The position numbers and the translations under genes are program-made. Positions 7,511 through 20,861 of a DNA stretch of 64,000 nt are shown in pieces. This stretch comes from an uncultured Bryobacteraceae bacterium (lineage in GTDB: Bacteria > Acidobacteriota > Terriglobia > Bryobacterales > Bryobacteraceae), in NCBI GenBank assembly GCA_938003835.1, contig CALKXJ010000006.1, forward strand, positions 1-64,000, given 5' to 3'. Positions within the stretch are counted from its first letter, which is position 1; each line of letters opens with the position of its first letter. The notes beneath the pieces were generated by a model. That model had not been told where the DNA came from. It ran no database searches and worked only from the letters and a program-made list of their open reading frames with translations.

Positions 7511-7588
7511 CCTATGGGATTCTACCGCGCGTCGGGGGGCGGCAGGGGCAGGAGGTGGGATATCATAGCCGAATCGGGTGAAAACAGG

Positions 7589-8101
7589 ATGAAACGATCG
7601 CCTCGTCTGGATCGACGTCGGTTTCTGGCAGTCTCCGGCGCCGCGCCCACGCTGGCCTGCTCGCGGGCCGGGCGCCGCTGGCGCTTCTTCACTGAGGAGG
7701 AGGCGGCCACCGCGGCGGCCGTCTGCGACCAGATCATTCCCCGAGATGAAGACCCCGGGGCCGTGGAGACGGGCGCGGTGGAATTCATTGACCGCCAGCT
7801 CAAGGGTCACTACCGGCACTGGCAGCGGGCCTACCGCGAGGGCTTGCGCGAGATCGATGAGGCCGCCCGCGCGAAGTTCGGAAGAGCGTTCGCTTCCCTC
7901 GGCCCGGCAGAGCAGCTCGAGCTCGTGCGCGAGCGCGAGAAGACGCCGTTCTTCCGCCTGATCACGGACCACACGATGCAGAGCTTTTACGGCGACCCGC
8001 GCCACGGCGGCAACCGCGACTTCGCAAGTTGGCGCATGCTCGGCATCGCCAACCCGCCGGTGCGGGGCCGCCAGCAGTACGATCTGCGGGCGTCGCAGTA
8101 G
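7589..8101 (+). CDS. Gluconate 2-dehydrogenase subunit 3-like protein, Tat-exported
   Basis: 170 residues. The start at 7589 opens with a Tat signal (LDRRRFLAVSGAAPTLACSRA). The mature part begins FFTEEEAATAAAVCDQIIPRDEDPGA, the signature of the gluconate_2-dh3 family, the small subunit that accompanies membrane-bound GMC dehydrogenases and often carries the export signal for them. It ends nine bases before the GMC gene, fitting a heterodimer exported together. The C-terminal half ends in WRMLGIANPPVRGRQQYDL. Confidence 0.88.
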   Translation: MKRSPRLDRRRFLAVSGAAPTLACSRAGRRWRFFTEEEAATAAAVCDQIIPRDEDPGAVETGAVEFIDRQLKGHYRHWQRAYREGLREIDEAARAKFGRAFASLGPAEQLELVREREKTPFFRLITDHTMQSFYGDPRHGGNRDFASWRMLGIANPPVRGRQQYDLRASQ

Positions 8102-8110
8102 GAGGGCGAG

Positions 8111-9748
8111 GTGGCGCTGCGACATGTGGATGCGGTGGTGATCGGCTCGGGCGCCGGCGGCGGCATTGTGGCCAAGGAGCTGGCGACGGCCGGCATGACG
8201 GTGGTCTTACTCGAGCGCGGCCGCTGGATATCGCCCTACGAGTGCGCCAAGGACGATCTGCGCAACCAGCGCACCTCGGTGCTCGGCGCCTCCTTCGGGC
8301 CGGAGGACGAAGGCAACCCGCGCGTCAAGGTGAATCGCGACGGCAGCGAAGAGATCGTCTATCCGAGCCGGGGCGCCTACCACAACAATGCGATGTGTGT
8401 GGGCGGGGGCACGGCCAGCTATGGGGCGATGGCGTGGCGCTTCATGGCGCAGGATTTTCGCATGCGCTCGATCTACGGCGCCGTCGAAGGCAGCACGCTC
8501 GAGGACTGGCCGATCAGCTACGACGACCTCGAACCCTATTACGAGAAGGCCGAATATGAACTCGGCGTCTCGGGCGACGTCGAGCCGGACCCGTTCAAAG
8601 CACCGCGGCGCAAGCCGCTTCCGATGCCGCCGCTGGCGCCGAACCTCGAATACAGGATCCTGAAGCCGGCGGCTTTGCGGCTGGGCCTGCATCCGTTCGA
8701 CATTCCCATGCTGCGCAACAGCGTTCCCTACGACGGGCGGGGCGCCTGCATGCGCTGCCGCTGGTGCGTAGGCTTCGCCTGCGAGGTAAACGCCAAAAAC
8801 GGCACGCAGAACACGGTGATTCCGAAGGCGCTCGCTACCGGGCGCTGCAAGCTGCGGACGCGGGCCGTGGCAAAGGAGATTCTGCTCACCGCGCAGGGCA
8901 AGGCGCGCGGCGTGGCTTATATCGACCAGAATGATCGGCTCCAGGAACAGACCGCCGATCTGGTGGTGGTCTCCTGCGGGGCGATCGAGTCGGCGCGCCT
9001 GCTGCTCAACTCCAGGAGCCGCCTTTTCCCGAACGGCATCGGCAACAATCACGACTGGGTCGGCCGCAACCTCCAGGGTCATACCTACACCGGCGCCAAC
9101 GGCCTGCTGCCGTTTGACTGCTACGACGATTTGGGCCCGGGGGCGGGTATCGCCATTTGCGATTACAACCACGGCAATCCGGGCCTGGTGGGCGGCGGGA
9201 TGCTCTGCAATGAGTTCATTCGCCTCCCCTACCAGTACCTGGGGCGCATGCCGCCGTGGGTGCCGGCATGGGGAAAGGAACACAAGGACTTCGTCCGGAA
9301 GTGGTACCGCCGCACGATCAATGTGCAAGGGCCGGTACAGGAGATGCCGGTCTTTGAATCGAGGGTCCAGGTCGATCCCAAGGTCAAGGACCGCTGGGGC
9401 ATCCCGGCGGCGCGGCTATCGGGTTACAAGCATCCCCACACGCTCGAGATCGCCGACTTTCTCTCGCGGCGCGCCGAGGAGTGGGTGAAGGAGGCGGGTG
9501 CGATCCGCACCTGGCGGCGCGTGCCAAACGATGACCTGAGCGCAGGCCAGCACCAGGCGGGCACCTGTCGGATGGGCAACGATCCGAAGACCTCGGTCGT
9601 GGACCGCTACTGCCGCGTCCACGACGTCGAGAACCTTTACGTGGTGGACGCGAGCGTCCACGTCACCAATGGCGGGTTCAATCCGGTTCTGACGATCATG
9701 GCGATCGCCTACTGGGCCTCGGCCCACCTTGTGCGGAGCAGGAGCTGA
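8111..9748 (+). CDS. GMC-family FAD-dependent dehydrogenase
   Basis: 545 residues. The N-terminal dinucleotide fold is clear (VVIGSGAGGGIVAKEL, GxGxxG at 12-17), with VVLLERG at the end of strand 2. The C-terminal GMC module is present: HQAGTCRMGNDPK, YVVDASVHVTNGGFNP and TIMAIAYWAS. The cysteine-rich stretch CMRCRWCVGFACEVNAK is typical of the gluconate/sorbitol dehydrogenase subgroup. It starts with GTG, with AGGAGG five bases upstream. It lacks its own signal and is probably exported with the Tat-bearing small subunit. The substrate is likely a sugar, sugar acid or polyol, but it is not determined by sequence. Confidence 0.92.
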   Translation: MALRHVDAVVIGSGAGGGIVAKELATAGMTVVLLERGRWISPYECAKDDLRNQRTSVLGASFGPEDEGNPRVKVNRDGSEEIVYPSRGAYHNNAMCVGGGTASYGAMAWRFMAQDFRMRSIYGAVEGSTLEDWPISYDDLEPYYEKAEYELGVSGDVEPDPFKAPRRKPLPMPPLAPNLEYRILKPAALRLGLHPFDIPMLRNSVPYDGRGACMRCRWCVGFACEVNAKNGTQNTVIPKALATGRCKLRTRAVAKEILLTAQGKARGVAYIDQNDRLQEQTADLVVVSCGAIESARLLLNSRSRLFPNGIGNNHDWVGRNLQGHTYTGANGLLPFDCYDDLGPGAGIAICDYNHGNPGLVGGGMLCNEFIRLPYQYLGRMPPWVPAWGKEHKDFVRKWYRRTINVQGPVQEMPVFESRVQVDPKVKDRWGIPAARLSGYKHPHTLEIADFLSRRAEEWVKEAGAIRTWRRVPNDDLSAGQHQAGTCRMGNDPKTSVVDRYCRVHDVENLYVVDASVHVTNGGFNPVLTIMAIAYWASAHLVRSRS

Positions 9749-9753
9749 CACGA

Positions 9754-10839
9754 ATGGCGCTCCGACGAATGATACTGACCGGGGCCGGCGCGGCCGTCGT
9801 GGTACTGGCGGTGGCGACCGGCGGCGGATTGCTCTATTACGAAGCGGCGGGCGGGGAGGCTTGCGCCCGCTGTCACGAAATCCGGCCGGCCGTGGAGGAA
9901 TGGGCCGCTTCGACCCACCGCTCGCTCGCCTGCTCGGCCTGTCATGGCGGGCCGTTAACACCCGACCTCAATTTTCATGCGGGCAATCTGCGGCGCCTGG
10001 TGCGTCACCTGCGCGACGACGTCCCCGGGCAAATCGTGGTCGCCGGCTGGCGCGACATCGAGCGGATCACCGAGCGGTGCCGCAACTGCCACCAGGAGGA
10101 GCACGCGGCCTGGCTGGCCGGGCCACACTCGACGACTTACGCCGAGATCTTTCTCGATGCCGAGCACAACGCCAAGCGCCTGCTCATGGACGACTGCCTG
10201 CGGTGTCACGGGATGCACTTCCCGGGAAGCATCGAGGATCTGGTCACGCCGATTTCGACCAGCGGGCCGTGGCGCCTGCGGGTACCCGAACTGGCCGGCC
10301 AGCCCGCCATCCCGTGCATCGCCTGCCACGAAATGCACCGGAAGGGCACGCCCGGTGCCAGACGCATCGGGCGGCGCGAGCGGCCTGCCGCCGTCACCGA
10401 GGCGATCGCCCCGGCCTCCCTGGCGCTGATGGACCGGCGGACAAAGGTGCACCTGACGGCGACCGCCATGCCGGTGCCGGAGGTCTTCGAGAATGGCCGG
10501 CGCGTGAAGATGAGTCCTGACCGGCGCCAGGCGCTCTGCTACCAGTGCCATGCGCCGGAGGCGGGCGCCGCCGCCTGGACCGGGGACGACCGTACGGGGC
10601 TGGGCGTCCACGAAGGCATCAGTTGTCTGGCCTGTCACGCCACCCACACGCAGCGCACGCGGGCCTCGTGCGCCGGCTGTCACCCGCGCTGGTCCAACTG
10701 CGGTCTCGATGTGGAAACGATGGACACCACGTTCAAGGATCCGAAGAGCCGGCACAACATCCACACGGTGAAATGCGCGGACTGCCACCCCAAGGGGATC
10801 CCGCCGAAGAAGAAAGTTGCAGAGCCTCGCGCCGACTGA
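9754..10839 (+). CDS. Nine-heme c-type cytochrome with N-terminal membrane anchor
   Basis: 361 residues with one N-terminal membrane helix (about 6-27) and nine CxxCH motifs: CARCH, CSACH, CRNCH, CLRCH, CIACH, CYQCH, CLACH, CAGCH and CADCH. The anchor followed by closely spaced hemes recalls the NapC/NirT type, but the total number is larger and the later part looks like a separate multiheme domain. It starts five bases after the GMC gene, so it is probably the electron acceptor of the dehydrogenase, anchored on the outside of the inner membrane. Confidence 0.9.
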   Translation: MALRRMILTGAGAAVVVLAVATGGGLLYYEAAGGEACARCHEIRPAVEEWAASTHRSLACSACHGGPLTPDLNFHAGNLRRLVRHLRDDVPGQIVVAGWRDIERITERCRNCHQEEHAAWLAGPHSTTYAEIFLDAEHNAKRLLMDDCLRCHGMHFPGSIEDLVTPISTSGPWRLRVPELAGQPAIPCIACHEMHRKGTPGARRIGRRERPAAVTEAIAPASLALMDRRTKVHLTATAMPVPEVFENGRRVKMSPDRRQALCYQCHAPEAGAAAWTGDDRTGLGVHEGISCLACHATHTQRTRASCAGCHPRWSNCGLDVETMDTTFKDPKSRHNIHTVKCADCHPKGIPPKKKVAEPRAD

Positions 10840-12831: not shown

Positions 12832-12892
12832 GACCTCCCGGGGAACCGGCGCCGTTCTGCGATGCTTGCCGGGGGTGATCGGGAGATCGTTG

Positions 12893-13543
12893 ATGATCCT
12901 ACTGGCAGGCTGGAGCGGAGCGGCTGGGGCGGACCCGCTGCTCGAGGCGGTGACCCTGTCTGCTTCCTTCGACCAATCCGTACGCGCCGACGACGGGGGA
13001 GGGCGGCTGGAGCCCGGCACAGTGAGCTTCTGGCTGAAGACCGGCCCGGACACGATGCGCAAGACGCGGTTTTGCGATCCGGTGCAGATCACCGAGAGGG
13101 GGGCCAACAACGGCGGCCTGTGGGTGGACCTTCCCGACACCACCCCGCGCGATTTCCGGCTCGGCGCTTTCCCGGCCGAGCGACCCGGCCGCGGGTTGAT
13201 CGCCGAATCGGACGCGGACGCGCCGCTCGTGGTGGTGAAGAACGTCGGCTTCCGGGCTGACCGGTGGCACCACGTGGCCTTCACCTGGCGGAACTCCGAC
13301 ACGGGGCGGGCCGATGGCGAGGCGGCGCTCTACCTTGACGGGGAGCTTCAAGGCGTGCTGGAGGGCCGGCAGATCGCCATGGACTGGGATATCGGGAAGA
13401 CGGGGATCTATTTCGCAGTGGGTTATATCGGCCTGATGGATGAACTCGCCGTCTTTCGGCGACCGCTCGGCGCCGAGGAGATCCGGCGGCTCAACCGGGA
13501 GCCGGGGCTGGCGGCGGCCTTGAAGGGTCGAGCGAAGGATTGA
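12893..13543 (+). CDS. Exported LamG/concanavalin-like lectin domain protein
   Basis: 216 residues. The start was set at the ATG at 12893, which has GGGAG seven bases upstream and gives a short signal (MILLAGWSGAAGA); an upstream in-frame TTG at 12866 is less likely. The body has the LamG pattern: a first strand LSASFDQSVRAD, then FRADRWHHVAFTW, AALYLDGELQGVLEG and GLMDELAVFRRPLGAEEIRRL. Such domains bind sugars or mediate adhesion. It is a stand-alone single domain between the thioredoxin-fold protein and the cytochrome operon. Confidence 0.8.
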   Translation: MILLAGWSGAAGADPLLEAVTLSASFDQSVRADDGGGRLEPGTVSFWLKTGPDTMRKTRFCDPVQITERGANNGGLWVDLPDTTPRDFRLGAFPAERPGRGLIAESDADAPLVVVKNVGFRADRWHHVAFTWRNSDTGRADGEAALYLDGELQGVLEGRQIAMDWDIGKTGIYFAVGYIGLMDELAVFRRPLGAEEIRRLNREPGLAAALKGRAKD

Positions 13544-13636: not shown

Positions 13637-14923
13637 ATGTCGGATGACTCGGACAGACGATGCTCGCGGGCCGTTCTGTCATCGCTCCTCGTGCCGGTGT
13701 GGTTCTGGTTTGCCGCGGCGCCGGAGGCGCAGGCCATCCCCGGTTTTGCCCGCAAGCATGACGTCAAGTGCTACAATTGCCACACTATTCCGCCGGTCCT
13801 GAACAAGACCGGCTACCTTTACAAGCGTTTCGGCTACCGCCTCCCGCCGGATTATGAGCCGGGCACTGCCCCGAAGAAGCTCTCCGAAGTCGACCGGAAG
13901 TTTTCCTGGCGGCTGACGGACGCGGCGGCCTTCCTGTTCGAACCGAATTTCAGCTACACGAAGGCCGGCGCCGAGGGGGAGCCGGGCGAGTCGCGCTCGA
14001 GTTTCGCGACCGAAGAACTCGAGCTGTTCTTCGGAGGCCATGTGCCGGAGACCAACTTCGGCTACTTCGTCGAGGCGGAGGTCGGCACCGAAAAGGCGGA
14101 GCTCGCCCAGGCGGTGGTGGCCTACGCGACGGGCCAGGTGAATTCGAGCGTCCTGCTGCGCGCGGGCAAGATGCTGCTTCAGGAGGGCGAGGGCACGCGT
14201 GGGGCCGTGGGCTTCAGCCTGTTCCCCTCGATGGCGCCGGTGCTCGAGCACTCGAGCCCGGTCGGCTTTACGCTCGATCATGCTCCGGTGGGCGTGCATG
14301 GCGGCTACACCTGGGCCTCGTCCTGGTACCGGCATATCGTCTCGGTCTCCGCGAAGCTCACCAACGGGGTCAACCAGGAAGGCGAGGGCATTGCGGCGGA
14401 CGCGACGCGCAATTTCAAAGACTTCTGGTTCAACGCCGACTGGTGGTTCGGTCCCGACGGCGGGGTGACCTTCTTAGCCTACCGGGGCGAGAAGGACCAG
14501 GAGGCGCTCGACGGCTCGTTTCGTTTCCGGCCCGCCCTGCGGCGCTACGGCGTCTTTGGCAACTACCTCTTTTTCGACAAGCTGGACCTGATCGGTGGCT
14601 ACTTGAAGAGCGAGGATGACTGGCGGTGGTCGGCGGCGGGTGCGGTCCGGCGTGCCCTCTCGCAGGGCTATCGCGGCGAGGTGGACTACTACTTCGTGCC
14701 CGGCCTGGCCGTCATGGGCCGCTGGGAACGCATCGACCAGGAGATCGAGGGCGGCCATCGAAGCCACCTGCGCTCGTGGGCGGTGGGCGCGGCCAAGGCG
14801 CTCACCCAGACGGGCCACATCGTGCTCCGGGGAAGTTATCAAGATGACCGCGGCGCCGATCCCCTGGACCTCGTCAAGCGCCACGACCGCCGGTTCATGT
14901 TGGACGTAAAGGTTGCCTGGTGA
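13637..14923 (+). CDS. Outer-membrane beta-barrel with an N-terminal heme c motif
   Basis: 428 residues. After a signal peptide (about 1-33, ending EAQA) comes a single CYNCH heme motif (Cys45, Cys48, His49) in the context IPGFARKHDVKCYNCH. The rest alternates hydrophobic and polar residues with many aromatics (for example FGYFVEAEVG, DFWFNADWWFGPDGG, YGVFGNYLFF) and ends DRRFMLDVKVAW. A terminal tryptophan or phenylalanine is typical of outer-membrane barrels. It heads the cytochrome operon, its stop lying only nine bases before the next gene. A heme-tagged porin delivering electrons to or across the outer membrane is inferred. Confidence 0.75.
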   Translation: MSDDSDRRCSRAVLSSLLVPVWFWFAAAPEAQAIPGFARKHDVKCYNCHTIPPVLNKTGYLYKRFGYRLPPDYEPGTAPKKLSEVDRKFSWRLTDAAAFLFEPNFSYTKAGAEGEPGESRSSFATEELELFFGGHVPETNFGYFVEAEVGTEKAELAQAVVAYATGQVNSSVLLRAGKMLLQEGEGTRGAVGFSLFPSMAPVLEHSSPVGFTLDHAPVGVHGGYTWASSWYRHIVSVSAKLTNGVNQEGEGIAADATRNFKDFWFNADWWFGPDGGVTFLAYRGEKDQEALDGSFRFRPALRRYGVFGNYLFFDKLDLIGGYLKSEDDWRWSAAGAVRRALSQGYRGEVDYYFVPGLAVMGRWERIDQEIEGGHRSHLRSWAVGAAKALTQTGHIVLRGSYQDDRGADPLDLVKRHDRRFMLDVKVAW

Positions 14924-14931
14924 GGAGTCTC

Positions 14932-15342
14932 ATGAAGAGCGTGAGTGCCTTTGCGGTTTTCGGCCTGATGGTTGCGGCCGGGTTCGTCCTCGCTCAGACG
15001 GCGGACGTCGTTCTCCCGCAGGACAACGGCCCCGAGGTGATCGACGTCTCGAAATACCCGGCCGAGATCCAGAAGGCCTATGGCCTGTTCCGCACCAAGT
15101 GCTCCAAATGCCACACCATCGCGCGCCCGATCAATACGACGATGAGCCGGGCGGAATGGGAGCGCTACGTCAAGCGCATGATGCACAAACCCAACTCCGG
15201 CATCTCCTCGAGCGACGGCAAGAAGATTTTCGACTTTCTAATTTATGACCAGCAGACGCGCAAGGATCCGAACCCGGGGGCCTTCTTCCCGGCGCTTTCT
15301 CTCGAGGAGATCGAGAAGCTGCGGCAGATGCAACGCCGATAA
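14932..15342 (+). CDS. Monoheme c-type cytochrome
   Basis: 136 residues with a signal peptide (ending FVLAQ) and one heme site, CSKCH in YGLFRTKCSKCHTIARPINT. A later conserved-looking segment MSRAEWERYVKRMMHKPNSG supplies the methionines that could be the sixth ligand. The start was set at the ATG at 14932, preceded by GAGGAG; the GTG at 14920 overlaps the previous stop. It is a soluble periplasmic electron carrier placed between the heme-tagged barrel and the Rieske gene, and so is a candidate shuttle between the bc-type complex and its partner. Confidence 0.85.
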   Translation: MKSVSAFAVFGLMVAAGFVLAQTADVVLPQDNGPEVIDVSKYPAEIQKAYGLFRTKCSKCHTIARPINTTMSRAEWERYVKRMMHKPNSGISSSDGKKIFDFLIYDQQTRKDPNPGAFFPALSLEEIEKLRQMQRR

Positions 15343-15359
15343 GCTGATCGGAGGCGAAG

Positions 15360-15821
15360 GTGAAGCGCCGGTCTTTGCTGGGCTGGGTTAAGGTCGGCAC
15401 GGCGGCACTCGGGGGCGTCGCGGCGGCGACGGTGGCGGCGACCTGGCGTTTTCTCTCGCCGAGTGTGCGTTACGAGCCGCCGCAGGAGTTCAAAGCCGGC
15501 CCGCCGGAGGACATTCCAGTCAACGTGCCGGTGTTCTTGGCGGAGGAAAACGTCTTTGTCTTTCATGACCGCGACCACGGCTTTGCGGCCTGCACCGCCA
15601 CCTGCACGCATCTGGGCTGCACGGTGCAATGGTCCCCGGCCGACCAGCGCTTTTACTGCCCGTGTCATGGCAGCGTTTACGACCACGAGGGACGGGTGGT
15701 GGCCGGACCTGCGCCGCGGCCGCTGGACTGGTTCGAAGTGAGCCTGGCCAAGGATGGCCAGCTCCGCGTCAACAAGCGCAAGCGGGTGAGCTCCAAGGAC
15801 CGGCTCTGGGTGCGCCTATGA
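15360..15821 (+). CDS. Rieske [2Fe-2S] protein of a bc-type complex
   Basis: 153 residues with an N-terminal membrane anchor (about 8-29). The cluster ligands are visible in two boxes: CTHLGC (Cys82, His84, Cys87) and CPCHGS (Cys100, Cys102, His103). Cys82/His84 and Cys100/His103 bind iron; Cys87 and Cys102 form the usual disulfide. It starts with GTG after GGAGG. Its stop overlaps the ATG of the cytochrome b gene (ATGA), as in petA-petB-type operons. Confidence 0.94.
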
Positions 15822-17065
15822 GGATTCTTCGCGAGCTGCGGGATTCGATCCGCCGCCGCGCCCCGCTCTCCACTCCGAAAGGCAGGGTTCAGCTTGTCTT
15901 TCACACGCTATGGTTGCATATCCATCCGGTCAAGGTGCACAAGTCCCGGCTGCGATTCACCTACACCGGGTACCTGGGTTTCATCAGTTTCTATCTGTTT
16001 CTGATCCTGACCGCCACCGGAATCGCGCTGATGTTCTACTACCGCCCCGCCGCGGCTTACGCCTACCAGGATATGAAGGACCTTGAGTTCGCGGTCTTTT
16101 TGGGTAAGTTCACGCGCAATCTACATCGGTGGTCGGCCCACGCGATGATTGTCGTCGTGGTGCTGCACATGTACCGGGTCTTCGTCACGGGCTCGTACAA
16201 GAAGCCGCGCCAGTTCAACTGGGCGATCGGCGTCCTGCTGCTGGTGCTGACGCTGTTGCTGTCCTTCACCGGCTACCTGCTCCCCTGGGACCAACTGGCC
16301 TTCTGGGCAATTACGGTAGGGACGAGCATCGGCGCCTATGCGCCCTGGCTGGGCCCCAAGCTCAAAGAGCTGTTGCTCGGCGGAACCCAGGTGGGCGACG
16401 CCGCTTTGATCCGGTTCTATGTGCTGCACTGCATCGCTTTGCCTGGCGCCATGGCGCTGCTCACGATGGTGCACTTCTGGCGGATTCGCAAGGATGGCGG
16501 TCTGTCCCCGCCGCCCGCAGAGGTTCAAGAGCACGGCGCCGCCGCTCTGGAGGCTGTGACCTCGGATTCCGGGCGGGCGGAGCTTGCCGGGACCCAGTCC
16601 GGCGCCGTGGCAGTGGCGGCGGTGATGGCGGCGCGGGCTGCCCGCGGCGAGGATCTAATTCTCTCTTATCCCTATGCCTTCCACCGTGAAGGGATTGCGC
16701 TGCTGGCGACGTTGCTGGTGATGATGACGGTTTCGCTGGTCTGGGGTGCGCCTCTCGAAGAAATGGCGAATCCGGCTAAGACGCCCAATCCGGCTAAGGC
16801 GCCCTGGTATTTTCTCGGCGTTCAGGAGATGGTGAGTTACTCTGCTTTTCTCGGCGGGGTTGCGGCTCCGGCGCTGATCATCCTGGCGCTTCTGGCCCTT
16901 CCCTACCTCGACACAAACCCGGAGCGTCGGCCCTCGAAACGCAAGCTCGCAATCTGGATCTTTTCTCTGGTGCTGCTGGCGAATCTGGTCTTCATCGTGA
17001 TCGGCACCTGGTTCCGCGGTGAGGGCTGGAAGTGGGTCTGGCCCTGGAGCGGCTCAGATGGATAA
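15818..17065 (+). CDS. Cytochrome b subunit of a bc-type complex, N- and C-domains fused
   Basis: 415 residues. The four heme b ligands are His103, His117, His204 and His219. The second pair is separated by 14 residues, as in b6-type proteins. [15 protein letters not shown] is the quinol-site region and [15 protein letters not shown] corresponds to the PEWY loop, with Pro-Trp-Tyr-Phe here. The b6-like and subunit-IV-like halves are joined in one chain by a polar, alanine-rich linker (about 227-285). The start at 15818 overlaps the Rieske stop, and the end overlaps the hexaheme gene by 8 bp. The longer open frame upstream is a shadow. Confidence 0.93.
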
Positions 17066-18449
17066 GCGGGCCCAGCAGGTCTTCGCTTTACTCAGCCTCG
17101 CGGTGCTCGCGGTGACGCTCGCGGCGATCGTCGAGGCCGGCCGGCCGCCGTGGAAGGCCTACCAGCGCGCCTTTTACCGGCTGGCGGCGAGCCGCGAGCG
17201 GGACGCGACGCGGCGCCAGAGACTGCTTCGTGAGCCGCTCGAGATCAAGCAGATCCTGCTACCGGGCCTCGGCAGGGTGGACCGATGTCCAACCTGTCAC
17301 CTGGGTGTCGAAGACCCGGATCTGGCCGACGCTCCGCATCCGTTCCGCTTTCATCCGGGACTCGAGCCGCACCGGGTGGAGCGCTTCGGCTGCACGGTCT
17401 GTCACGGCGGGCAGGGTCTGGCGACAGAGAAAACCGCGGCACATGGGCCGGTGCAGAACTGGCTCCAGCCGCGGCTGCCGCGGCGCTATCTGCGGGCAAG
17501 TTGCGCCTGCTGCCACACCGAAGGCGAGATTCCCGGTGTTCCGGAGCTGGGGGTGGCGCGCCAGATTTTCGCCACGCGCGGCTGCCCGGGCTGCCACCGG
17601 CTGAACAGCTTCGGCAACACGATTGGGCCGGAGCTGAGCGACGAAGCGCGACGTGAGCGAACGCCGGAGTGGCTGGAGCAGCACTTCCGGGATCCGCGTT
17701 CGATGACACCGCCTTCCCCCATGCCCGATTTCCGGTTCACCCAGCCGGAGATCGAGGCGCTGACGTTGTGGGTTCTGTCGCTCACCACGGAGCCGATGGC
17801 CGCCTACTACAGGAGCGTTCCCGTGATTCCGAGCGCTTCCGAGGGCCGCAGGCTGGCCGCACGCGCAAACTGCCTGCATTGTCATGCGATCCAGGGCGCC
17901 GCCGGCAGCCTGGCGTGTAATTTGGCCGGTATGGCCACGCGCCGGTCCGCCCGTTACATCGAGCGGCAGCTCGAGGAGCCTGAACCGATCGGCACGCGGG
18001 CGGCGATGCTGGCGTTTGGCTTCTCCCAACCCGCCTGCCGGGCGATCCGTGCCTTCCTTGAAGTCGCCACGGCTGCCGACGCGCGCACGCTTCTTGACAA
18101 CGCTTCCGCACTGGCCGACGGCGGTGAGACCCTGGTCGAGCTCGGGCGGCGGCGAACGCTGCACTTCGGTTGTGTCGGCTGTCACGGCGGGGATCTCAAG
18201 GGAGGAGTCAAGAATCCGAACAGCCAGGGCGGGGCAGTGCCCGCCCTGATTCACCTCGCCGACGACTACACCCGCGAGGAAGCGGCGACCATCATCCGCC
18301 GGGGCAAGACGCCGGCGCTCGAGGATCCCGCCAAGCCGGCGCCGCCGCTTTACATGCCCTCGTGGAAAAAGATCCTCGCTGAGGAGGACATCGAGCGGAT
18401 TCTCGCCTATGCCTGGTCGCTCAGGCCCAAGGAGTCCGAGGCCTGGTGA
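17058..18449 (+). CDS. Hexaheme c-type cytochrome of the bc-type complex
   Basis: 463 residues with an N-terminal membrane anchor (about 7-26) and six heme motifs: CPTCH, CTVCH, CACCH, CPGCH, CLHCH and CVGCH. The region around [19 protein letters not shown] and the following [24 protein letters not shown] looks like a cytochrome c domain with a distal methionine; the last two hemes sit in similar class I-like domains. It occupies the place of cytochrome c1 in the operon and overlaps the cytochrome b gene by 8 bp. It probably receives electrons from the Rieske protein. Confidence 0.9.
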
Positions 18450-18473: not shown

Positions 18474-20861
18474 ATGCGCAAGAGCAGCCGCCGACCGATT
18501 CTGGTCCGGCTCGCGGCGGCGGGCCTCGCCTGGTGCGCCGCCTCGCTCCTGGCCCAGGAACGCACCTTTCCGAGCGTGCGCGTGGAGCCGTTGGATGAAG
18601 CCGAGGGGTTCGACGATGAGCCGGCGCTCGCCCAGGCCGCCGACGGCACGTTGTACGTTGCCTGGATCAGCTTCCGCGCCGGAGGCGAGACGCTCCGGCT
18701 GGCGCGTTACCGTTTCGACGGGGCTGGTTTCTCGCGCCTCGGGGGCTGGCAGATTGCGGGCGGGCGCGCGACCTACGTGCTGAGCCCGAAGCTGGTCGCT
18801 GCGGCCGAGAAGGTCTGGGTCGTCTACGCCGCTGAGCAAAAGGGAGATTGGGACGTTTGGGCGGTGGAGTGTTCGGCGCGCGGCTGCGGGAGCCCTCTCC
18901 GAGTAAGCTCCGCGCCCGGCGCCGATGTCGACCCGGCGGCCGCCTGGCACGACGGCACGCTCTGGGTCGTCTGGGAGGCGAGTCGCGGCGGGGCGCGGCA
19001 GATCCTGGCGGCTTCGGTGCACGGCGGTCGGGTCTCGCCCGAGGAGCCGGTGAGCGAAAGCGGCGTCTCGAACTACGATCCATCGATCGCAGTGGACAAC
19101 GCGGGCGCCGTCGCCGTGGCCTGGCACCGCTTCGCCGACAACAACTACGACATCTACCTGCGCCGGCGGCCGCGCGGAGGCGCCTGGCAGCCGGAGCGCC
19201 GCCTGACGCGCGCGCCGGGCATCGACCGTCACGCCTTCCTGTTCACGCGCGGTGAAGAGCTCTGGATCGCCTACGAGAATGCGCAGATGGAACGGTACTT
19301 CACGGGCCGCACCGTCCGGCGCCGGGTGATCGTGGCCGAGATTACGCCGCGCGGTCTGGAGTCGTTTGCCGGACACCGCTCGCCCGAGCATCTTTGGGAG
19401 CGCGCCGAAGCCGCGGCGGCGGGGTTCGACGGCCAGGGGCGCCTGTGGGTGGCATACCTGAAGCCGCGCCTGCCGCGCGGCGGCTGGGAGGTGCACCTGG
19501 CGGCGCACAACGGCGAGAAGTGGATCGGCCAGGCGGCCGTCTCGCGCCGCAAGGGGATGGATCGCCGGCCGGCGCTCGTGGTGAGCGGCAGGGAGGCGTT
19601 TCTGGCCTTTCAGGCCGACGATCTGCCCGAGACGTGGGCCCAGGACGACCCGGCGGCCACCAGCCAGGCGCGCAGCCGGATCCTGCTGGGCGCCGCCGAC
19701 CTGGATCGCGCCCCGGCCAGAGCCGTGCCCTTTCGCGTCGAGCCGCTCGCCGAGCCGCTCGAGGATTTCGAGGCTGCGCGCCTGCGCCTGCATTACGGCG
19801 AGGATCTTGAAACGCCGGTGACCGATTATCGGGGCAAGAAGCTCCGGCTGTGGTTCGGCGACTTGCACAACCACTCCGATATCTCGGTGTGCAACCGTGT
19901 CGGCGACCAGTCGATCGACGAAAACTTTCAGGTAAGGCGGGATATCAACCGGCTGGACTTTGCCGCAGTGACCGACCACGGCTACAACATGGTCCCCTAC
20001 CTGTGGCGCCATTCGGCGAAGCTCGTGCGGGCCAATTATGACCCGGGACGATTCCTCACCTTGCTGGGTCAGGAGTGGACGTCCTCGTTCGAGATCTATA
20101 CCGACGAGAACCCGTACGGCTACTACGGCCACCGGAACCTGATTCACGAGGATCCTTATTTCCCCCGCTGGTGGAACGCGCACTTGGGCGGCACGCCCGC
20201 TGAACTGTGGGCGGCGCTGCGGAAGATGAAGGCGAGCTTCGTCACCATTCCGCATCAGCTCGCCGACACGGGAAACGTTCCCGTGGACTGGCGCTTCACC
20301 GACGAGCAGGCCCAGCCGGTAGCCGAGATCTTTCAGGTGCGCGGCTCCTATGAAGGCTTCGGGGCGCCCCGGCAGGCACAGCGCTCGATCCAGGCGCCGG
20401 GCCGGTACCTGCGCGACGTCTGGGCGGCTGGCAAGATTATCGGGGTGATCGCCAGCCCGGACCACGGCGGCGGCTACGGGAAGGCGGCGGTCTGGGCCCA
20501 GGAGCTGTCGCGCAAATCGATCATCGAGGCCATACGCGCGCGGCGCACTTACGGCACCACCGCGCCGCGACTGGTTCTGGATGTGAGGGTGAACGGCCAC
20601 ATGATGGGGGAAAAGGTCCGCGAGCCGGCCGGCGAGCGCGTCGAGGTGAAGATCCGCGCGCGGGCGCCCTCCCGCATCACCAGCGTCGAGGTCTGCCGCA
20701 ATGGCGATTTTATCTATGTTCACGAGGCGAACGACCGCGACGTGGACCTCACTTTCCTGGATGCTTCCCCGCCGGCGGGGCGCGTCTACTACTACGTTCG
20801 CGTCTTCCAGCAGGACTACGAGATCGCCTGGAGCAGTCCGGTGTGGTTAGGAGCGGATTGA
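18474..20861 (+). CDS. Secreted beta-propeller/PHP-type metal-dependent hydrolase fusion
   Basis: 795 residues with a signal peptide ending LLAQ. Residues about 28-420 contain propeller-like repeats of the form DGTLYVAWISF, DGTLWVVWEAS, AVAVAWHRF and GRLWVAYLKP, as in sialidase-like folds. From about 460 a PHP-like metal site appears (FGDLHNHSDIS), followed by FAAVTDHGYNM, FLTLLGQEWTS, HRNLI and ASPDHGGG, which resembles DUF3604/PHP proteins. The pairing suggests a substrate-binding propeller joined to a metallohydrolase, but the substrate is unknown. It is 24 bp after the hexaheme gene. Confidence 0.75.
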   Translation: MRKSSRRPILVRLAAAGLAWCAASLLAQERTFPSVRVEPLDEAEGFDDEPALAQAADGTLYVAWISFRAGGETLRLARYRFDGAGFSRLGGWQIAGGRATYVLSPKLVAAAEKVWVVYAAEQKGDWDVWAVECSARGCGSPLRVSSAPGADVDPAAAWHDGTLWVVWEASRGGARQILAASVHGGRVSPEEPVSESGVSNYDPSIAVDNAGAVAVAWHRFADNNYDIYLRRRPRGGAWQPERRLTRAPGIDRHAFLFTRGEELWIAYENAQMERYFTGRTVRRRVIVAEITPRGLESFAGHRSPEHLWERAEAAAAGFDGQGRLWVAYLKPRLPRGGWEVHLAAHNGEKWIGQAAVSRRKGMDRRPALVVSGREAFLAFQADDLPETWAQDDPAATSQARSRILLGAADLDRAPARAVPFRVEPLAEPLEDFEAARLRLHYGEDLETPVTDYRGKKLRLWFGDLHNHSDISVCNRVGDQSIDENFQVRRDINRLDFAAVTDHGYNMVPYLWRHSAKLVRANYDPGRFLTLLGQEWTSSFEIYTDENPYGYYGHRNLIHEDPYFPRWWNAHLGGTPAELWAALRKMKASFVTIPHQLADTGNVPVDWRFTDEQAQPVAEIFQVRGSYEGFGAPRQAQRSIQAPGRYLRDVWAAGKIIGVIASPDHGGGYGKAAVWAQELSRKSIIEAIRARRTYGTTAPRLVLDVRVNGHMMGEKVREPAGERVEVKIRARAPSRITSVEVCRNGDFIYVHEANDRDVDLTFLDASPPAGRVYYYVRVFQQDYEIAWSSPVWLGAD

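Follow-up and report, generated by a model that had tools for sequence, protein, structure and literature searches.

The gene at positions 13637-14923 on the forward strand of the analysed DNA (a stretch of 64 kb, hereafter the window) almost certainly encodes a fused cytochrome-porin, in which a single heme c motif precedes a predicted outer-membrane barrel. The protein is Cyc2-like, a likeness drawn through published descriptions of motif and fold rather than through a reference Cyc2 sequence. The first-pass annotation had presented the built-in heme as a departure from conduits made of separate porin and cytochrome proteins; fused cytochrome-porins are, however, already known as Cyc2 (PMC8406198, PMC5566968), and a single fused heme c on a 16-stranded porin is a known design and the published hallmark of that protein. 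What is new is the setting: a Cyc2-like gene that heads an operon with its own bc-type complex, of which we found no description in open-licence PMC titles and abstract starts among the matches listed (weak evidence of absence). We favour, with modest confidence, an overall explanation in which the Cyc2-like porin provides electron entry and is wired to this dedicated bc complex.

Cyc2 has been described as a signal peptide and one CXXCH joined to a 16-stranded, OprO/OprP-like porin, the heme site being preceded by the motif AXPXFAR[Q/K][T/Y] and followed by PXL (PMC8406198). The window gene specifies 428 residues from an ATG start, and its N-terminus shows the order IPGFARKHDVK-CYNCH after a likely signal peptide (residues 1-33, ending in APEAQA; 13637-13735) recognised by eye from its hydrophobic stretch. 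The counterpart of the first Cyc2 motif, AIPGFARKH (13733-13759), agrees in six of seven specified letters; the last, T or Y in Cyc2, is H here, and among the 64 family sequences it is Y in 49, F in 13 and H in 2. Three residues separate it from the first Cys of CYNCH (residues 45-49; 13769-13783), where PMC8406198 gives ‘5 amino acids upstream’, and the PXL motif, PVL (13793-13801), begins at the fourth residue after CYNCH, the stretch reading CYNCH-TIP-PVL. CYNCH is the sole heme c motif of the protein, which ends in Trp; a single CYNCH after a likely signal peptide and a terminal Trp, as the first reading had it, are borne out by the reading frame. Across all six frames the window holds 23 CxxCH motifs, 17 of them in the porin and three neighbouring cytochromes (1, 9, 1 and 6). 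Searches of Pfam and NCBIfam with the protein returned no match at E ≤ 1, and a sequence search of the PDB found no relative (best E 0.68 with the single sequence; nothing at E ≤ 10 with the profile).

We assessed conservation in two alignments: A1, composed of the window protein and 19 relatives picked by hand from phylum and family genome searches, and A2, composed of the window protein and 63 of the 79 loci recovered by an alignment scan of a genome contig collection (a single-sequence scan of the same collection gave no confirmed relative). Fifteen partial, divergent or short loci (L110, L123, L133, L135, L136, L138-L140, L142, L144, L147-L149, L151 and L152) stand outside both A2 and the CxxCH count, while L130, which has an undetermined or stop codon, stands outside A2 alone, its CxxCH being visible. 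CxxCH was present in all 64 near-full-length relatives so counted, and the 79-locus set is not blind to this region, since two of the three scan patterns lie just after the motif. Together with its flanking P, R and PxL it is invariant in 20 of 20 A1 rows and 64 of 64 A2 rows, at identities to the window protein reaching down to 27% and 35%, respectively; a chance CxxCH was rejected on the invariance of C, C and H throughout A2. Numbered from the mature N-terminus, the positions invariant in A2 are P3, R7, C13, C16, H17, P21, L23, G27 and G34. Among H, M, K, C, Y and W residues, those conserved in at least 85% of A2 within the first 70 positions are C13, C16, H17, Y28 (63/64) and K31 (55/64), and no further His or Met reaches that level anywhere in the alignment; we count this lack of a conserved distal His/Met ligand against the favoured reading.

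Acidobacteriota, a phylum common in soils, account for 78 of the 79 loci as labelled, the remaining one being Armatimonadetes, and the isolate names of 15 loci contain palsa, bog or fen. At E ≤ 0.001, 99 of 396 phylum genomes (the window’s own included) had a match, most of these matches covering just part of the N-terminal 150 residues. Within the same family, 26 of 101 genomes had a porin match, of which 14 were strong (E ≤ 2e-70, again with the window’s own) and the next stood at 3e-12. The N-terminal motif recurs in 12 other Acidobacteriota proteins, and a profile built from these could be aligned to A2 over 354 columns (hhalign 99.9%); their barrels are therefore probably related as well. 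Pfam gave one weak match in one of the 20 A1 members (E 0.069), and one weak porin match, below its cut-off, among 10 other family proteins. The plasmid search yielded one weak match, in Methylocystis (E 4e-3), and none when repeated with another family member.

The AlphaFold2 model of the porin, computed from a 64-sequence alignment (the window protein and 63 loci), had a mean pLDDT of 90.3 and a pTM of 0.88. It consists of three short N-terminal helices followed by 16 strands of at least three residues, which form a predicted beta barrel (model residues about 65-396; 13925-14920). The best match in VIA-align was OprO (4RJW; Z 25.8, 3.1 Å over 313 residues) and OprP (2O4V) ranked sixth with Z 25.4, although some fifteen top-ranking entries, with further 16-strand porins among them, lie within one Z unit and are best read as tied. 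Foldseek returned 255 PDB matches at E ≤ 0.001, and the best 50 of them consisted almost entirely of outer-membrane barrels, porins for the most part. PMC8406198 names OprO and OprP as structural relatives of Cyc2PV-1, which counts for the Cyc2-like reading. The earlier proposal of a heme c motif fused to an outer-membrane barrel is hence sustained by the single CxxCH and the predicted 16-strand barrel: structure prediction, put forward as a check, did return a barrel, and the motif, whose possible loss in close homologs had been raised, is kept in 64 of 64 near-full-length relatives. A barrel of the Mtr/Pio type was considered and rejected, given the 16 predicted strands, the protein’s own heme motif and the lack of a Pfam match; elsewhere in the window genome there is one PF11854 match, below its cut-off (21.4 versus 23 bits).

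Four further genes follow the porin on the same strand, the gaps between successive genes over 14920-18449 being at most 17 bases (starts read from the open reading frames). The first encodes a monoheme cytochrome c, c1 (14920-15342), with one CSKCH, an N-terminus that looks signal-like by eye, and only weak Pfam matches below cut-off; its GTG start codon shares bases with the stop of the porin gene (GTGA), with an alternative ATG 12 bases later. Next come a Rieske [2Fe-2S] protein (15360-15821; PF00355, 3.1e-14) and a cytochrome b with b6-like and subunit-IV-like halves (15818-17065; PF00033, 7.6e-42, and PF00032, 3e-9), whose likely ATG, as read from the frame, overlaps the Rieske stop. All three Pfam domains score above their cut-offs (53.1, 143.7 and 37.5 bits, against 20.3, 27.2 and 20.7, respectively). 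The last gene encodes a hexaheme cytochrome c subunit (17019-18449) with six CxxCH, assigned from co-occurrence and from a match to ExtS that lies below the cut-off; since the alignments of most family relatives begin at residue 9 or 10, translation may in fact start at an in-frame ATG near 17058.

Other genes flank this set in the window. A LamG-like (Laminin_G_3) protein is encoded on the same strand at 12866-13543, 93 bases upstream of the porin, and at 18474-20861, on the same strand after the operon, a protein of 795 residues that matches DUF3604; the latter had no tblastn match in the 78 relatives’ loci. Further upstream, the cluster at 7514-10839 comprises genes for a Gluconate_2-dh3 subunit, for a GMC oxidoreductase and for a nonaheme cytochrome c whose N-terminus resembles NrfH. 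Homologues of the GMC oxidoreductase and the nonaheme protein stand beside the porin operon in only one of 78 loci, L081 (70% and 57% identity).

Synteny was examined by tblastn on 78 of the 79 loci (L152 was left out). In 66 of the 68 loci that continue for 600 bases or more past the porin, a c1 homologue comes after it. Scoring same-strand homologues within 6.5 kb irrespective of gene order, we found Rieske, cytochrome b and hexaheme c together downstream in 31 of the 47 loci that extend at least that far, and no full set in the other 16. A GltD-like oxidoreductase is also there in 28 of the 31; the three full loci lacking it are L074, L112 and L151, of which the latter two hold distant bc homologues only (28-40% identity), in another order in L151. 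Upstream, a histidine kinase and an NtrC-type regulator occur in 40 of the 57 loci with at least 3.5 kb of sequence on that side. The GltD-like protein, as read from L066, belongs to the NAD(P)-binding flavoproteins and has a stretch resembling NuoI at its C-terminus (PRK12771, 4e-134, below the model cut-off at 448 versus 516 bits). By tblastn, neither the 64-kb window nor its nearest relative, L074, contains a match to GltD or to the two-component system. The 16 loci with no full bc set, the three full ones lacking GltD, and a window without GltD or two-component system count against the favoured reading.

The loci that depart from the common pattern fall into several kinds. In L111, L113-L117, L120-L122, L126 and L145, most of which read VPQ[FY]ARRY, the porin and monoheme c are present but the bc set is not complete within 6.5 kb (a single weak hexaheme-like match occurs in L115), so another partner may exist; the full set is also missing in L090, L124, L130, L134 and L140. 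Conversely, in L125, L127, L128, L129 and L137 the usual bc and GltD genes, together with two successive monoheme c matches, stand behind a porin only 35-36% identical to that of the window, and the porin thus seems exchangeable. L140, where a broken porin match leads straight to cytochrome b and hexaheme c with no match to c1, GltD or Rieske, is a deletion or an assembly fault.

The link between porin and bc complex is also visible in gene content across the family. At cut-offs of E ≤ 2e-70 for the porin and E ≤ 1e-60 for the hexaheme subunit, the latter leaving weaker homologues out of account, 14 of the 101 family genomes carry the hexaheme gene, namely 13 of the 14 porin-positive ones and 1 of the 87 others (Fisher p = 2.4e-14), counts that are not independent of those from the 79 loci, as the two sets partly comprise the same genomes. 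The two mismatching genomes, G432 and G443, are 87% and 84% complete. The upstream nonaheme cytochrome (9754-10839), which we considered as an operon partner, was rejected: it is found in 44 of the 101 genomes and is only moderately enriched (11/14 porin-positive versus 33/87 others, p 0.007). We consider it very probable that the porin works with the operon’s bc complex. This complex is probably not the sole quinol-oxidising route, since six NrfD-like matches and another cytochrome b occur in the window genome as well. The second cytochrome b gene (C6:237470) lies near the genome’s best GltD homologue (46% identity; C6:235147-236583), about 220 kb off on the same contig, and the two (region C6:234718-237934) perhaps represent another bc complex with its own oxidoreductase.

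We infer the heme attachment, the order of the partners, the substrate and the direction of flow from these data; the most likely role is electron entry, probably from Fe(II). In the favoured mechanism, an N-terminal segment of about 60 residues would carry one heme c and be followed by the 16-stranded OprO/OprP-type barrel. The first-pass annotation had suggested a heme at the periplasmic mouth that would serve as an electron entry point; such an entry is plausible. In Cyc2, the heme domain has been placed within the barrel as a ‘plug’ (PMC5566968), and this ‘inner placement’ has been taken to suggest reaction with dissolved Fe2+ only (PMC9040806). A small soluble extracellular donor, most probably Fe(II), would enter the pore and give one electron to the porin heme, from where it would pass to c1, to the hexaheme subunit, to the Rieske/cytochrome b complex (15360-17065) and finally to the quinone pool. 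In many relatives the GltD-like NAD(P)/FAD/Fe-S oxidoreductase of the operon would spend these electrons on NAD(P)H formation, an ‘uphill’ branch resembling petI of Acidithiobacillus ferrooxidans (cytochrome c4, NAD(P)-binding sdrA and bc1), which Fe(II) is reported to induce and to which an uphill role has been assigned (PMC2754497); the operon of these relatives unites a comparable set with the porin. That the net flow runs inward, from Fe(II) or some comparable donor, is in our estimate an even call. More doubtful still is whether the operon amounts to a self-contained Fe(II)-to-quinone-to-NAD(P)H module under a private NtrC switch, spread among Acidobacteriota of peat and other habitats; with such a module, organotrophs would gain reductant from dissolved iron while fixing no CO2 by the Calvin cycle. 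RuBisCO was not found in the window genome and is not enriched with the porin (2/14 porin-positive versus 12/87 other family genomes), and Calvin-cycle iron autotrophy therefore gains no support.

The same chain could also be read in reverse, with electrons passing from quinol through the bc complex to hexaheme c and c1, and then through the porin heme to a soluble extracellular acceptor, which would be an Fe(III) chelate, a humic quinone or an oxidised metal. In NCBIfam, the window cytochrome b matches Geobacter ExtP (8.6e-78) and, in its C-terminal half, ExtQ (3.2e-18), and the hexaheme protein matches ExtS (6.2e-12), a resemblance to a reduction-linked cluster that counts against inward flow; all three matches, though, score below the NCBI cut-offs (260.9, 66.3 and 45.3 bits against 290, 150 and 100). 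The porin of the ext cluster has been implicated in selenite and tellurite reduction and the cluster is reported to be up-regulated with Fe(III), yet ExtI is reported to be dispensable for Fe(III) citrate reduction (PMC5877670). Outward flow would also suit a genome in which RuBisCO was not detected and which carries the GMC dehydrogenase and nonaheme c upstream, and Acidobacteria have been suspected, from their decaheme cytochromes, of reducing Fe(III) in arctic peat soil (PMC3669403). Against it, the three Cyc2 proteins tested were reported to be Fe(II) oxidases (PMC8406198), and a GltD next to bc genes is no less compatible with the formation of NAD(P)H. On this balance we regard outward flow as unlikely, while treating it as the most serious competitor of electron entry.

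A further reading, which we consider improbable, is that of a substrate porin whose heme domain serves as a lid, redox gate or sensor during transport of anions or metal complexes, with no electron flow across the membrane. The nearest solved barrels are indeed substrate or anion porins (OprO, OprP and Omp32), and the missing distal ligand would suit such a role, but the c1 homologue in 66 of 68 loci, the full bc set in 31 of 47 and a presence/absence pattern that tracks the hexaheme subunit all speak against it. That CYNCH is a disulfide or a chance occurrence in an ordinary porin, as the missing Pfam and NCBIfam cytochrome match might suggest, is hardly credible in view of the adjoining cytochrome genes and of C, C and H retained in 64 of 64 A2 rows.

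The setting of the porin operon suggests that the Acidobacteriota carrying it exchange electrons with their surroundings. Its genome-level tie to one bc complex (13/14 versus 1/87) means that the operon yields a testable prediction of where the electrons go. Inward flow would carry iron oxidation into Acidobacteriota that lack RuBisCO; outward flow would make the porin, with its single heme, a very small conduit for reduction. Cyc2 homologues are used as search signs for iron oxidation, yet according to the authors of PMC8406198 the function of distant ones is in many cases uncertain and may be another.

Several known systems share parts of this organization. The ext cluster of Geobacter (ExtI, ExtO Rieske, ExtP, ExtQ and ExtS) likewise combines a porin with genes for a Rieske protein, cytochrome b and multiheme c; there the cytochromes have been described as products of genes distinct from that of the porin ExtI (PMC5877670), and the five window operon genes gave no rhodanese or selenoprotein match in Pfam or NCBIfam. 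In the petI operon (cycA1-sdrA1-petA1B1C1) the genes of a bc1 complex are co-transcribed with those of a periplasmic cytochrome c and of an oxidoreductase that binds NAD(P) (PMC2754497). SdrA is, however, a short-chain dehydrogenase, in contrast to the GltD-like flavoprotein of the window’s relatives, the c subunit here is hexaheme, and the outer-membrane oxidase of A. ferrooxidans is Cyc2 but is described as encoded in the separate rus operon and not in petI. MtrAB, PioAB and MtoAB have in common with the proposed system electron transfer across the outer membrane through a barrel, and differ in their separate decaheme cytochrome and predicted 26-strand barrel (PMC10654088), as opposed to a built-in heme motif and 16 predicted strands. 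The closest likeness is to Cyc2/Cyt572 of Mariprofundus, Acidithiobacillus and Leptospirillum, with which the window protein shares the likely signal peptide, the single N-terminal CXXCH, an AXPXFAR-type motif (six of the seven specified Cyc2 letters), the PXL motif and the predicted 16-stranded OprO/OprP-like barrel, its 428 residues comparing with a published minimum of at least 365 for Cyc2. The gene neighbourhoods diverge: Cyc2 of Acidithiobacillus is accompanied by cyc1, cup, cox and rus (PMC10654088), whereas the window porin is followed by Rieske, cytochrome b and hexaheme c genes, to which many of its relatives add the GltD-like oxidoreductase and the NtrC system.
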